Positions 34,609 through 39,461 of a stretch of 39,461 nt of DNA are shown here, piece after piece. The stretch lies in NCBI GenBank assembly GCA_024681515.1, contig JAILAR010000182.1, forward strand, positions 1 through 39,461, read 5' to 3'. A program made the translations under genes and the position numbers. The notes beneath the pieces are model-generated. The model worked only from the letters and a program-made list of their open reading frames with translations, searched no databases and was not told where the DNA came from. The stretch is from Eubacterium sp. (GTDB taxonomy: Bacteria; Bacillota; Clostridia; Lachnospirales; Lachnospiraceae). Numbering within the stretch: the stretch's first letter is position 1; each line of letters starts with the position of its first letter.

Positions 34609-34626
34609 TATTTGTGAATATGGAAC

Positions 34627-34632
34627 AGGAGG
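34627..34632 (+). promoter_or_regulatory. Ribosome binding site that sets the deoD start
   Basis: A perfect AGGAGG ends 5 nt before the ATG at 34638. The longer frame would start at a GTG at 34614 and would place this site inside the gene. Confidence 0.85.
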
Positions 34633-34637
34633 TTCAT

Positions 34638-35393
34638 ATGACACCACACATTGAAGCAAAAAACGGCGATTTCGCCAAAACCGTTCTAATGCCCGGAGAT
34701 CCGAAACGCTCTGCCTTTATTGCAGAGACCTATCTGGAAGAACCACGACTGGTGAACAATCTGCGAGGGGTGCAGGGCTATACCGGAACCTACAAGGGAG
34801 TACCTGTATCCGTTATGGCCAGCGGCATGGGGATCCCGTCCATTTCCATCTATGCACATGAGCTTTATACGCTCTACGGGGTGGAAAATATCATCCGCAT
34901 CGGTTCCGCGGGGGCACTTAAAGAAGAGCTGCAGCTCGGAAGCGTGGTGGCCGGTATGTCCGCCTGCACGGATTCCAACGTGACCTCCCAGCTGGAACTG
35001 GGTGCGTATTATGCTCCGACCGCAGATTATACACTTCTGGAAACGGCAGTGCAGCAGGCGAGAGCGCTGGGCGTCACCATGCCTGTAGGCCCCATCTACT
35101 CCAGTGATGTCTTCTATGATGCCGCAAACCGTGCGCAGCGTATGGCAAAGCTGGGGGTTCTGGCAGTCGAGATGGAAGCGGCAGGGCTGTATGTTGCAGC
35201 GGCGCAGGCGGGAAAGAGAGCACTGGCGATCTGTTCGATCTCTGATAACGTGATCACCGGAGAAGCCATGAACGGAAAGGACCGCGAGACCACCTTCCAT
35301 GACATGATCACCATCGCACTGGAAACTGCAAGATCAATGGAAATGCGTCCGCAGTATAAAAAAATACGCACCTTGGCACGAAGGTCATCTTGA
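34638..35393 (+). CDS. deoD: DeoD, hexameric-type purine nucleoside phosphorylase
   Basis: Phosphorolyses purine (deoxy)nucleosides to free base and (deoxy)ribose-1-phosphate in salvage. From the chosen start the protein opens with MTPHIEAKNGDFAKTVLMPGDP, matching the E. coli DeoD N-terminus. It contains GSAGAL, the substrate-binding VEMEAAGLY and the catalytic-Asp region SISDN. The 251-residue length fits, with a basic C-terminal tail of about 12 extra residues (YKKIRTLARRSS). It follows the ABC permease by 29 bp with no terminator, but is functionally unrelated. The stop codon overlaps the -35 box of the next promoter. Confidence 0.95.
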   Translation: MTPHIEAKNGDFAKTVLMPGDPKRSAFIAETYLEEPRLVNNLRGVQGYTGTYKGVPVSVMASGMGIPSISIYAHELYTLYGVENIIRIGSAGALKEELQLGSVVAGMSACTDSNVTSQLELGAYYAPTADYTLLETAVQQARALGVTMPVGPIYSSDVFYDAANRAQRMAKLGVLAVEMEAAGLYVAAAQAGKRALAICSISDNVITGEAMNGKDRETTFHDMITIALETARSMEMRPQYKKIRTLARRSS

Positions 35394-35467: not shown

Positions 35468-35884
35468 ATGGCAATGACATTTAAGGTTGCAAAGGCATTT
35501 TTTGATGCTCAGGGGTTAAAAAATCAGGTTATTAAAGAGGATTCCGTCCTCAGAGTCGGCTTTAATGCAGACAACAAGGACCAGATCGAAGTTATCGTCA
35601 TTTTTGATGAAAACGACCGTACGGTCGCTCTTCGCAGTTTTCATTACGTAAAGTACCCGGACGGAAAGCTGGATGCCATGTATCGTGTATGCTCTCAGCT
35701 GAACAACAGTTTCCGCTGGGTTAAGTTCTATGTTAACGAAGAAGACAACTCCATCACCATGGCGGATGATGCAGTGGTTCAGATTGAATCCTGCGGAGAA
35801 GAAATCAGCGAACTCGTGTTACGTATGGTTTCCATCGGAGATGACGCTTATCCGAAGTTTATGCAGGCAATCTACGCAAGCTGA
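35468..35884 (+). CDS. YbjN domain protein
   Basis: A 138-residue soluble protein of the YbjN family, whose fold resembles type III secretion chaperones; no biochemical role is settled. Visible features are FKVAKAFFDAQGLKNQVIKEDSVLRVGF, a central IEVIVIFDENDRTVALRSF strand pair and a C-terminal helix after ELVLRMVSIGDDAYPKFMQAIY. The ATG is preceded by AAAGGAG with about 10-nt spacing; the upstream frame extension crosses the promoter and is rejected. The gene has its own promoter and a strong terminator, so it is monocistronic. It directly precedes the giant AAA+ protease gene; a chaperone or adaptor relationship would be speculative. Confidence 0.85.
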   Translation: MAMTFKVAKAFFDAQGLKNQVIKEDSVLRVGFNADNKDQIEVIVIFDENDRTVALRSFHYVKYPDGKLDAMYRVCSQLNNSFRWVKFYVNEEDNSITMADDAVVQIESCGEEISELVLRMVSIGDDAYPKFMQAIYAS

Positions 35885-36027: not shown

Positions 36028-39000
36028 ATGAGTAACAGTGCAGTTTTAAATCAGATCATAAAAATGGGTCTGGGAACGCCGATCGGTCTGATCGGTGGTT
36101 TTGCCAAGTTGATTTCCATGGATCAGGGAGTGCTTGACACTCTTTTTTCTTCAGAAGAAGAGAAGGCGGACCTGCAGGCAATTCATACCATCATGGAAGA
36201 ATATGAAATTGATGTAAATCTGTTAAAGCAGGGAGCACCTTTACTCAGCCTGATGAGCACCGAACAGGATAAAAAAGAACTGGAAAAATATCTTGCAGGC
36301 ATAGAGTCATCAGGGAAATCCGTGATCGCGGCCGATGTGCTGAAGGATCTGCTCACCTGGAATATCCCGGAGCTGGAACTTGTCAAGAAGGGCCATAATA
36401 TGTCTCATATTCTGGATTATTCGGACAAGAATAAAGATAAATCTATGGAAAAGCGTAAGCAGGAAAAGCCCGCGAAAGAAGCGCCTGCTGCAAAAACGCC
36501 TGCAAAGAATGCAGAAAAGAAAAATGAACCGGCTGAAAAGCAGACTGCTTCCGAAAAAACCGAAGAAGCATCGGATACTTCTGCCGATCAGACACAGGAG
36601 ACAGAAGAAGCATCTACTGATCTCAGTATGCTGATCAAGCGCGTAAAACGGCTGACCGAGTGTCTGAAACTCCAGATCAAAGGACAGAACGAAGCCATTC
36701 GTCTCTTCGCAGAAGGTTATTTCCAAAGTGAGGTCTTTAAAGAAGAGGATCGGAAAGGACCGAGTGCTACGTTCCTTTTTGCAGGCCCTCCGGGTGTCGG
36801 AAAAACATTCCTTGCGGAAACGGCAGCTGCAAATCTGAATATGGCACATCTTCGACTTGACATGAGTGAATTTGCATCCCATGATTCTGTGAAGCGACTG
36901 GTGGGAACGGAGAAGCATTTTGCCGGTTCTGCGCCCGGCGTTCTTACTTCCTTTGTCAAGGAGAATCCGCGTTCCATCATCCTGTTGGATGAGATCGAAA
37001 AAGCGGAAGAGGATGTTATCTATCAGTTTCTTCAGGTTATGGATGGCGGAGTCCTTACGGACGCCATGACCAAAGAGCAGATCGATTTCAAAAACACGAT
37101 CCTGATCTTTACCACGAATGTCGGTAAGTCTCTCTACGAATCCAGAGATCGTATCAACCTGTCCGGGATTCCGCGGGCCGTTGTGATCAAGGCCTTGGAA
37201 GAAGAGAAGAATGAATACGGAAAGAACCGTTTTCCTGCGGCGATCTGTTCTCGTTTCGCTGCCGGAAATGTGATCATGTTCAATCATCTGGAGACACATA
37301 TTCTTCAGGAGATCACCAGCGGAAAGTTCACCGAAGCTGCCGATCACATCCGTTCATTGTATGATATCAACACAAAATATGACTCCAGACTTGCGGCAAT
37401 GTTCCTGTATACCCAAAGTGTCAATCTGGATGCGCGTAATATCTCTGCACAGAGTACGATCCTGGTCAAGAACGAGCTTTACGAGTTCGGGAGAAATCTG
37501 GAAGATGTTCATCGAACGGTGACCGACCTGAAGAAGCTGGTTTTTACCATTGAACTGCCGGAGGATAATCCGGAGATCCAGCAACTGTTCCATAACGAAG
37601 AACAGTCCAGCATCCTTCTGTTCGGAGATAAAAATACCTATGAGGGCGTCCCCTTCAGTGAGAAATGCAATGTAAAGATCACCGATTCCATTCAGGAAAT
37701 GCTGGAAACCATCGGGGATAAGGACATTTCCTTTGTAGTTATCGATCTGAACTTCGGTCTGGAAGTGCAGCATCAATATCTCAGCATGGACGACTGGGAT
37801 TCTGTCGGTATCCAGGCATTTAACGAACTCAGAGAAAAGCTTCCGCAGATCCCGGTCTATATCCTACAGAACAGTAATCTGCGTACGGAAGACGCAAACA
37901 CATTTACTTCCCGGGGCGCCCGGGGCTTCCTGGATATCTGTGATAAGACGGCATTCGCGAATTCGATCGCTGAGATCTGTAATCAGAGTTATATGCAGAA
38001 AAAGGTATATGAACTGTCTGACCGCGGCAGGATACTGAGCTATAATACCGCACAAAGGATCCTGGATGACGGACAGACCGCAGAGATCAAATTCTACGAT
38101 TTCAAGACACGTCTTGCTACCAGCGGTGAAGAAAACCAGATGATGATCGGTGATAACAACCGACCCAAGGAGCGGTTTGAAGACGTGATCGGTGCTGAAA
38201 GCGCCAAGAAGGAGATGGAATACTTCGTAAAGTTCCTGAAGAACCCGAAGAAGTATATGGCGAACGGCAGTAAACCGCCGAAGGGGATCCTGCTTTACGG
38301 GCCTCCGGGTACCGGTAAGACCATGCTGGCGCGTGCCATGGCAGGAGAAAGCGACGTTCCTTTCTTTGCAGCAAGTGCGACCGGATTCATGGATCGTTAT
38401 TTCGGTGAGAGTGAGCGGAAGATCCGTCAGCTCTTTGCGACAGCACGTAAGTTTGCTCCGAGTATCGTATTTATCGATGAGATCGATGCCATCGGAAAGG
38501 AACGTACGGGAAGTGAGCATACGCATATCACGGAAGAGATGCTGAATGCCCTGCTGATCGAAATGGACGGTTTCAATAAGAATCCGGCAAAACCGGTATT
38601 TGTTGTAGCTGCAACAAATTTTGATCTGGACGGTTCCGTATCCGGAAAAGAGCGTTCCCTGGATCCGGCACTTCTCAGACGTTTTGATAACCGTGTATAT
38701 GTGGATCTTCCGAAGGAAAATGAACGTCTGAAATACATGCAGATCCAATTGCAGAAGATCAAAGAACATGCCGTTACGGATAATGCATTACAGAGTATTG
38801 CCACAAGAACCACCGGGGAGAGTCTGTCGATCCTGAAGGATGTTCTGGATCTTGCTCTTCGAAATGCGACCAGAGAAGAAAAGGTATTAGATGATACGAT
38901 CCTTTTGAAGGCACTGGATGAATATCTGTATGGAGAAGAGCGTGAAAATAAGGAGGACTATTACAAATCCGTCTCCATTCATGAATCCGGTCATGCCTAT

Positions 39001-39461
39001 ATCTATACGCTTGGAGGATGGAAGCCCAGCTTTGTAACGATCATTTCCAGAGGAAATTTCGGCGGTTATATGCAGCATGAAAACTCGGAAGATACGCCGT
39101 CCTATACGAAGGAACAGCTGCTTTGGAGGATCCGGACCGCACTTGCAGGCCGTGCGGCTGAAATGGAGTTCTTCGGTGAAACGGAAGGAACGAATACCGG
39201 TATCTCATCGGATATTCAGAACGCGACCAACATTGCGATGAATATGGTATGTCGTTATGCGATGGCTGAGGATCATCTGATCAGTCTGCCTCCGGAACAG
39301 ATTCTGAAGACAGCAAGAGGCGAAAAACTGCTTGATACGGTCGAACAGATCCTTCAGGAGCAAATGATCGAAACCCGAAAACTGGTTCACGAAGGCAGGG
39401 ACAAGATCCAGGCACTGGCCGAGTTCCTGCAGCGTCAGAATCAGGCTACGGAAGCAGAGAT
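36028..39461 (+). CDS. Giant fusion: ClpB-D2-type AAA+, receiver-like domain, FtsH-type AAA+ and M41 protease (partial)
   Basis: One continuous frame of at least 1144 codons, cut by the window end. Order by residue: helical N-terminal region (1-131); Lys/Ala/Glu/Pro/Thr-rich linker (132-198); ClpB-D2-like AAA+ (about 205-510) with Walker A GPPGVGKT (253-260), Walker B IILLDE (317-322) and a C-terminal small subdomain; receiver-like domain (about 527-645) with an aspartate at the usual phospho-site (D573); FtsH-type AAA+ (about 713-920) with Walker A GPPGTGKT (758-765), pore loop YFGES (791-795), Walker B IVFIDE (813-818); and an M41 protease with HESGH (H985, E986, H989) and third ligand D1062 in SSDIQNAT. 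No transmembrane segment is apparent, unlike normal FtsH. By family knowledge it should unfold and degrade proteins using ATP and zinc; targets are unknown. The start has AGGAG at 36016-36020. Confidence 0.88.
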   Translation, partial: MSNSAVLNQIIKMGLGTPIGLIGGFAKLISMDQGVLDTLFSSEEEKADLQAIHTIMEEYEIDVNLLKQGAPLLSLMSTEQDKKELEKYLAGIESSGKSVIAADVLKDLLTWNIPELELVKKGHNMSHILDYSDKNKDKSMEKRKQEKPAKEAPAAKTPAKNAEKKNEPAEKQTASEKTEEASDTSADQTQETEEASTDLSMLIKRVKRLTECLKLQIKGQNEAIRLFAEGYFQSEVFKEEDRKGPSATFLFAGPPGVGKTFLAETAAANLNMAHLRLDMSEFASHDSVKRLVGTEKHFAGSAPGVLTSFVKENPRSIILLDEIEKAEEDVIYQFLQVMDGGVLTDAMTKEQIDFKNTILIFTTNVGKSLYESRDRINLSGIPRAVVIKALEEEKNEYGKNRFPAAICSRFAAGNVIMFNHLETHILQEITSGKFTEAADHIRSLYDINTKYDSRLAAMFLYTQSVNLDARNISAQSTILVKNELYEFGRNLEDVHRTVTDLKKLVFTIELPEDNPEIQQLFHNEEQSSILLFGDKNTYEGVPFSEKCNVKITDSIQEMLETIGDKDISFVVIDLNFGLEVQHQYLSMDDWDSVGIQAFNELREKLPQIPVYILQNSNLRTEDANTFTSRGARGFLDICDKTAFANSIAEICNQSYMQKKVYELSDRGRILSYNTAQRILDDGQTAEIKFYDFKTRLATSGEENQMMIGDNNRPKERFEDVIGAESAKKEMEYFVKFLKNPKKYMANGSKPPKGILLYGPPGTGKTMLARAMAGESDVPFFAASATGFMDRYFGESERKIRQLFATARKFAPSIVFIDEIDAIGKERTGSEHTHITEEMLNALLIEMDGFNKNPAKPVFVVAATNFDLDGSVSGKERSLDPALLRRFDNRVYVDLPKENERLKYMQIQLQKIKEHAVTDNALQSIATRTTGESLSILKDVLDLALRNATREEKVLDDTILLKALDEYLYGEERENKEDYYKSVSIHESGHAYIYTLGGWKPSFVTIISRGNFGGYMQHENSEDTPSYTKEQLLWRIRTALAGRAAEMEFFGETEGTNTGISSDIQNATNIAMNMVCRYAMAEDHLISLPPEQILKTARGEKLLDTVEQILQEQMIETRKLVHEGRDKIQALAEFLQRQNQATEAE

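Follow-up and report, generated by a model that had tools for sequence, protein, structure and literature searches.

ClpA, ClpC and ClpX act with a separate peptidase, ClpP. In the typical layout of FtsH, an N-terminal transmembrane domain is combined with one AAA+ domain (as given in an excerpt of PMC9020784). Two AAA+ domains in one chain are described for MoxR-vWA ternary systems, whose FtsH-type component carries two FtsH-type domains, the first of them inactive (excerpt of PMC7159879). Here, we describe a gene of Eubacterium sp. (family Lachnospiraceae; assembly GCA_024681515.1, contig JAILAR010000182.1) in which a Clp-type motor, an FtsH-type motor and an M41 metallopeptidase are joined in a single frame. 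The window, i.e. the whole stretch of 39,461 nucleotides that was analysed, spans its entire contig (39461 bases) in a host genome of 3.13 Mb. The frame lies at 36028-39459 on the forward strand, starts with ATG and encodes 1144 amino acids (aa), free of stops up to the end of the sequence. The 3' end of the gene was lost because the window is the whole contig. Three further M41 genes were found in the host genome, all of ordinary length.

Judged by its sequence, the two-motor protein is an AAA+ protease of apparently unreported architecture. It does not belong to the FtsH equivalog because it lacks the single motor, the membrane features and the score of that family. We consider it probable that it forms the core of a soluble two-ring, ATP-dependent zinc protease with exchangeable recognition modules. 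The order of AAA and then M41, the HExGH motif and the third-ligand Asp are shared with FtsH across the family of relatives, and in its C-terminal part the family profile can be aligned with structures of soluble FtsH. In contrast to FtsH, the family adds a Clp-type AAA+ module and a receiver-like domain (two AAA+ modules, not one), and the window protein has no N-terminal segment of transmembrane strength. The family forms a separate group in the tree, and the best NCBIfam match of the window protein, FtsH TIGR01241, had its best stretch at 703-1137 and stayed at 321.9 bits, where the equivalog requires 600. The likeness to the D2 modules of ClpA/ClpC/ClpB (Hsp100) lies in the AAA_2 core, the Walker motifs, the Arg finger, sensor 2 and the aromatic pore loop. 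Unlike these proteins, the family has a single Clp-type module, its own M41 peptidase and no ClpP-docking tripeptide (14 members checked).

The MoxR-vWA component resembles the family in having two AAA+ domains per chain, the second of FtsH type. Yet the first module of the window protein is of Clp type with intact motifs, and an M41 peptidase is not mentioned for the MoxR-vWA component in section 21 of PMC7159879. A Clp-type ATPase (clpK/clpG) and FtsH are encoded together on a transmissible stress-tolerance island, but as two separate proteins with a membrane-bound FtsH, whereas the family is one fused chain (excerpt of PMC8290217). Chloroplast FtsH7/FtsH9 are also FtsH proteins with an additional domain; according to the excerpt of PMC9020784, the addition follows the second transmembrane helix and is a protease domain rather than a second motor. 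No publication on a Clp-FtsH-M41 fusion was among those listed in the literature search, which left most subscription papers and bioRxiv outside its scope. Within that scope, this agrees with a first-pass annotation made from the sequence alone, which had known of no characterised protease with this architecture.

Architecture and integrity of the frame

The first-pass annotation had read two AAA+ modules, a receiver-like domain and an M41 metalloprotease in one frame, and had proposed profile searches as a check. In Pfam, AAA_2 (residues 245-409, 2.5e-37), AAA (754-893, 1e-52) and Peptidase_M41 (979-1136, 1.9e-22) all scored above the cut-off, and the motifs bore the reading out as well. Motor 1 has a Walker A motif GPPGVGKT (253-260), D321/E322, R409 and R470, and motor 2 has GPPGTGKT (758-765), D817/E818 and R885. 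The peptidase carries HESGH (985-989) and the third ligand D1062. The loop VGTEKHFAGSAPG of the first motor presumably corresponds to the GYVG loop of Clp proteins. The same annotation had called this motor 'ClpB-D2'. A module of the Clp/Hsp100 D2 type is indeed present, but the ClpA model of NCBIfam scored higher than the ClpB model (157 vs 137 bits), and 'Clp/Hsp100 D2-type' is therefore the safer name.

The first reading had seen no evident membrane segment, and this held. The maximum 19-residue Kyte-Doolittle mean was 1.28 in the window protein, which is not of transmembrane strength, and 1.05-1.67 in the 15 members analysed, compared with at least 2.2 in 26 of 27 FtsH controls. The sole control under 2.2 (L021) has just 97 residues ahead of Walker A. 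The N-terminal domain (to about residue 140) had no Pfam match above the cut-off; it was helical in the full-length structure model, with a predicted local distance difference test (pLDDT) of 52-80 per block. Structure searches with the full-length model lent support to only two parts, the receiver and the Clp D2 core, and barely probed the rest.

As the window gene stops at the contig edge, two other explanations had to be considered: that the frame was joined in assembly, or that it is a relic in decay. A complete syntenic copy of 1169 aa was found in another genome of the family (L005, CAMPAX010000035.1, uncultured Lachnospiraceae), 67% identical and with the same genes upstream; hence, the window frame is not an assembly join. 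The annotation had named such a join in advance as a result that would speak against it, and the copy excludes this; a failure of profile searches to find one of the AAA+ modules, which it had named likewise, did not occur. A relic had been thought unlikely, and this was strengthened by the intact motifs of the window protein and by long stop-free frames in 15/15 members. Taken as one explanation, join or relic is extremely improbable.

The receiver-like assignment stood in part. The 25 families listed, of 46 with Pfam matches in the window protein, did not include the receiver family. A 14-row linker profile weakly matched receivers in PDB (ArcA 0.0056, 4d6x 0.0068, NtrX 0.013 and CheY 0.026), its top match (0.00051) being a designed protein. 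The AlphaFold model of this stretch had a block pLDDT of 71-90 (window residues ~527-656). Foldseek with this model gave a best E of 5.7e-6, and among the 50 matches listed nearly all were receivers or response regulators by their titles; one exception was a complex I chain. The column of Asp573, the phospho-acceptor Asp, was kept in 15/15 members. The CheY-like fold and this Asp are thus shared with the receivers of response regulators. Unlike them, 10/15 members have a single Asp where the acidic pair is expected, and the window has Gln and Ile at what we take to be the Thr/Ser and Lys places of the phosphorylation site. The fold and the Asp were upheld, and the rest of the phospho-site is lost.

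Table 1. Coordinates of the two-motor protease gene, the parts of its product and the adjoining genes in the window
Feature	Position	Strand	Details
Phosphorylase-superfamily gene (PNP_UDP_1)	34614..35393	+	Left border of the variable slot
YbjN-family gene directly upstream	35468..35884	+	Open frame from 35390 (TTG); ATG at 35468 fits relatives
Two-motor protease gene	36028..39459	+	3' end cut by contig end; 15 codons and stop missing compared with L005
N-terminal helical domain	36028..36432	+	Residues 1-135; shares homology with the N-terminal end of another AAA protein (G041)
Charged low-complexity linker	36436..36615	+	Residues ~137-196; direct sequence reading
Clp/Hsp100 D2-type AAA+ module	36760..37254	+	AAA_2, residues 245-409
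First-motor pore loop VGTEKHFAGSAPG	36901..36939	+	Residues 292-304, aromatic F298
Receiver-like (CheY-fold) domain	37597..38004	+	Residues ~524-659, Asp573
FtsH-type AAA+ module	38287..38706	+	Residues 754-893, pore loop FMDRYFGES
M41 zinc metallopeptidase	38962..39435	+	Residues 979-1136, HESGH 985-989, Asp1062

Members, distribution and conserved motor parts

The 15 members were the window, L005, L040-L044, L060-L066 and L071. Two copies cut by contig ends (L070/G973 and L096/G305) and L059, taken as the same record as L005, were left out of the counts. L006-L009 were set aside: L006 and L007 read as single-motor FtsH-like frames, and L008 and L009 match the C-terminal part only. Several members have about 1200 aa (L060:4566-8189, L061:7367-10930, L062:7842-11381, L063:2668-6240 and L064:7760-11353). 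The homologue in L065 has 1400 aa (L065:6621-10823) and an extra C-terminal region.

Among 397 genomes of the bacterial family, a whole-protein search found at least five long frames covering both motors besides the host (G288, G365, G299, G013 and G357, corresponding to L040-L044). The linker profile, with the host always included, was found in 7/397 genomes of the family, 2/391 of the class, 3/398 of the phylum and 8/61 close relatives, all of the latter in the genus (8/37 genus genomes). These samples overlap, and the genome counts are lower bounds, as only some candidates per genome were scored.

A tree of the AAA-M41 part, built by a quick method and containing several long branches, set the 15 members apart from 27 FtsH rows on one side of a branch with a Shimodaira-Hasegawa-like approximate likelihood ratio test value of 100. 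The tree of the AAA_2 part, with few controls, also placed the 15 members on one side (98/100) versus seven Clp/ClpX-type rows of the host. The simplest reading of both trees would be a single old fusion event behind the two-motor family. Member L043 combines two lineages in a mosaic: identity to L042 is 61% in motor 1 and 41% in the AAA-M41 part, which is 59% identical to L040. Its frame (L043:7127-11968) has three motors, namely one Clp-type and two FtsH-type AAA modules (80% identical to each other), followed by M41. The mosaic with a duplicated FtsH-type motor may be a sign of module exchange.

Walker B, sensor 1, the Arg finger and the sensor-2 Arg of motor 1 were kept in 14/15 members, and pore loop 1 was aromatic (F, Y or W) in 14/15 as well. 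Walker A, Walker B and the Arg at 885 of motor 2 were also kept in 14/15, and HExGH with the third-ligand Asp was present in all 15. The exception in these motor counts is L071. The pore loop of motor 2 was deleted in four members (L042, L044, L065 and L066). What stays constant across the family is the gripper of Clp type together with the M41 site; the front end and pore loop 2 vary. As pore loop 1 keeps its aromatic residue in 14/15 members and the FtsH pore loop is deleted in four, the Clp-type ring is probably the main puller. A tripeptide of the ClpP-docking type (IGF/IGL type, as in ClpA, ClpC and ClpX) between sensor 1 and the Arg finger was absent from 14/14 extractable members. Among the Clp-type rows of the host it was present in 4/5, namely in 2/3 Clp D2 modules and in both ClpX/HslU-like rows; the host row that lacks it is ClpB-like by our own label, as expected.

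The roles of the two rings could also be the other way round. The FtsH-type ring would then be the sole working unfoldase, and the Clp-type module would recruit substrates as a cap with a structural or allosteric role. In favour of this, the peptidase is joined to the FtsH-type module as it is in FtsH, and pore loop 2 of the window is still aromatic. Against it, the second loop is deleted in four members while the motifs and aromatic loop of the first ring persist in 14/15, and we judge it improbable.

Front ends, partner genes and genomic slot

The first-pass annotation had suggested a search for relatives of the same architecture and their neighbours, and this yielded a family of modular build, whose partner genes differ between members. 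YbjN genes scoring above the Pfam cut-off adjoin the protease in the window, in L005 and in L040 (two copies). Their side differs, being upstream of the protease in the window and downstream in L005. L066 has two YbjN-like neighbour genes; the first, with an E of 0.006, fell short of the Pfam cut-off, and the second had no match. The single YbjN match of the host genome is the neighbour of the protease. Among 14 YbjN-bearing genomes of the bacterial family, a YbjN gene with an adjoining two-motor frame was seen only in G000 and G288. A hypergeometric figure for co-occurrence (0.016) assumed five protease-bearing genomes among 329 and was not used.

In G041, a profile of the N-terminal domain from four members matched the N-terminus of another AAA protein (E 4.5e-10; the best of 200 shuffles reached 0.12). 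At this locus (L118:3457-6090), a YbjN gene is followed by the window-type N-terminal domain on a different motor, without an M41 match. In two further genomes (L106 in G215 and L110 in G109), the frames adjoining YbjN matches contain a GxPGTGKT motif. YbjN may partner AAA+ proteins more widely. Structures of the YbjN family have been likened to type III secretion chaperones (excerpts of PMC3575483 and PMC5398634), and an excerpt of PMC9503650 discusses the superfamily as peptide-binding chaperones.

Other members have other front ends. An RNase H1 N-terminal domain is fused at the front of L042 (L042:7344-11084) and L043, and two genes flanking L043 carry this domain as well (region L043:6436-12722). 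By eye, an apparent RNase H1-type gene also lies beside a YbjN gene in G182 (L111). For the N-termini of L060-L064, L066 and G973, homology to Clp_N was suggested by eye but had no support from profiles: a profile of L060-type N-termini retrieved no Clp, and the G973 copy scored 10.9 bits against Clp_N (cut-off 20.7). Genes of the Ser/Thr-kinase type lie near L060-L064, by Pfam in L061, L063 and L064 and by eye in L060 and L062. L061 is accompanied by an FHA-kinase gene, a PP2C gene and a further kinase gene, L063 by an FHA-kinase gene, a TPR-kinase gene and, by eye, a PP2C-like gene, while L064 lies downstream of a TPR-kinase gene. L060 and L064 share a similar gene of ~158 aa downstream, the one in L060 without a Pfam match. 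Overall, the family looks like one protease core with different front ends by lineage.

The protease cassette lies downstream of a phosphorylase-superfamily gene in both the window and L005, and in L005 an integrase-family gene comes next after the cassette. In five genus-mates (L097-L101), the phosphorylase gene, wherever it could be matched, is followed by other genes, and those in G792 (L099:2193-9435) extend to a Cas9 gene. The slot may serve as a cargo site. The variable slot and the patchy distribution suggest that the two-motor protease is an accessory gene that is gained and lost.

These features, in turn, raise the possibility of a different purpose for the same two-ring chemistry, namely an effector protease of defence or stress signalling that stays idle until a sensor module triggers it. 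Candidate triggers would be YbjN, the hybrid-binding domain, the kinase genes (those with FHA and PP2C near L061, with FHA near L063 and before L064) and a type III-D system of clustered regularly interspaced short palindromic repeats (CRISPR). The patchy distribution and the slot that leads to Cas9 in one genus-mate are in line with this. Moreover, a same-strand run of type III-D CRISPR genes (Cas10, Cas5 and Cas7; L095:2602-13295) ends with L065; the run also holds a CARF-HEPN gene and a weaker CARF match, with a seven-repeat array beyond another gene. The neighbours of L044 include helicase-type genes with matches to models of a defence library. Yet defence-type neighbours were found at only these 2/15 loci, the helicase matches are generic, and the scanned part of the window held no such neighbours. 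A PADLOC defence assignment of the protease was rejected, as its own matches (IetA, DolB and others) reflect AAA-domain families. We treat an effector role as a tentative alternative that is less likely than not.

No plasmid matched the linker, and none of 3981 matching plasmid records covered 80% of the whole protein. None of the 145 phage records matching a 722-aa query covered 80% of it, and the 15 phage matches listed were confined to residues 186-519 of the query. Two scans of viral contigs (six short patterns each) confirmed no relative, which also counts against the effector role. Mobile carriage of the two-motor protease was rejected within the scope of these searches. In the eight plasmid matches listed (including NZ_LS974446.1), a Clp-type ATPase gene and ftsH are adjacent as separate genes. 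These pairs are an independent hint that the two activities may belong together.

Proposed mechanism and meaning

The protease-core reading builds on the domain order, the intact motifs, the lack of a strong membrane segment, the conservation, the grouping of the modules and the linkage to YbjN at some loci. In the proposed mechanism, the N-terminal recognition domain would present the substrate, perhaps helped by the neighbouring YbjN-family protein. The Clp-type ring would grip the substrate with its aromatic pore loops and unfold it. The receiver-fold domain between the rings could serve as a spacer or a switch. The FtsH-type ring would pass the chain onward and hold the hexamer and its chamber, and the M41 chamber would cut the substrate. 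We infer the hexamer, the stacking of the rings, the order of threading and the roles of YbjN and the receiver.

Several observations weigh against this scheme. The full-length structure model was poor (mean pLDDT 37) and therefore gives no ring geometry for the hexamer or the stacking. Pore loop 2 lacks an aromatic residue in L043 (His) and L071, and in L071/G1180 (L071:6573-9458) the key residues of both motors are lost while the M41 site is intact. The hydropathy means of L005 (1.63) and L044 (1.67) are slightly above the customary mark of 1.6. Inner placements in the AAA-M41 tree are unsure because of its long branches. YbjN or YbjN-like genes were present at only 4/15 member loci (within the flanks fetched). 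Moreover, YbjN matches occurred in 14 of 329 genomes of the bacterial family, 12 of them without a two-motor frame seen adjacent.

A broader idea is that the Clp-FtsH core is a modular platform joined to YbjN, to RNase-H1-type hybrid binding, to kinase/FHA/phosphatase genes or, in one genome, to type III-D CRISPR. The CRISPR-linked member would then be a signal-activated proteolytic effector of new architecture. We regard this as rather unlikely at present.

If the protease-core reading is true, a soluble single-chain two-motor metalloprotease would mean that Clp and FtsH machines can be fused in series. A chain with two motors would allow a direct test of which ring works, and it might be used as a compact tool protease. 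The exchangeable front ends and partner genes would provide an approach to the question of how bacteria direct proteolysis to its targets, invaders perhaps among them.

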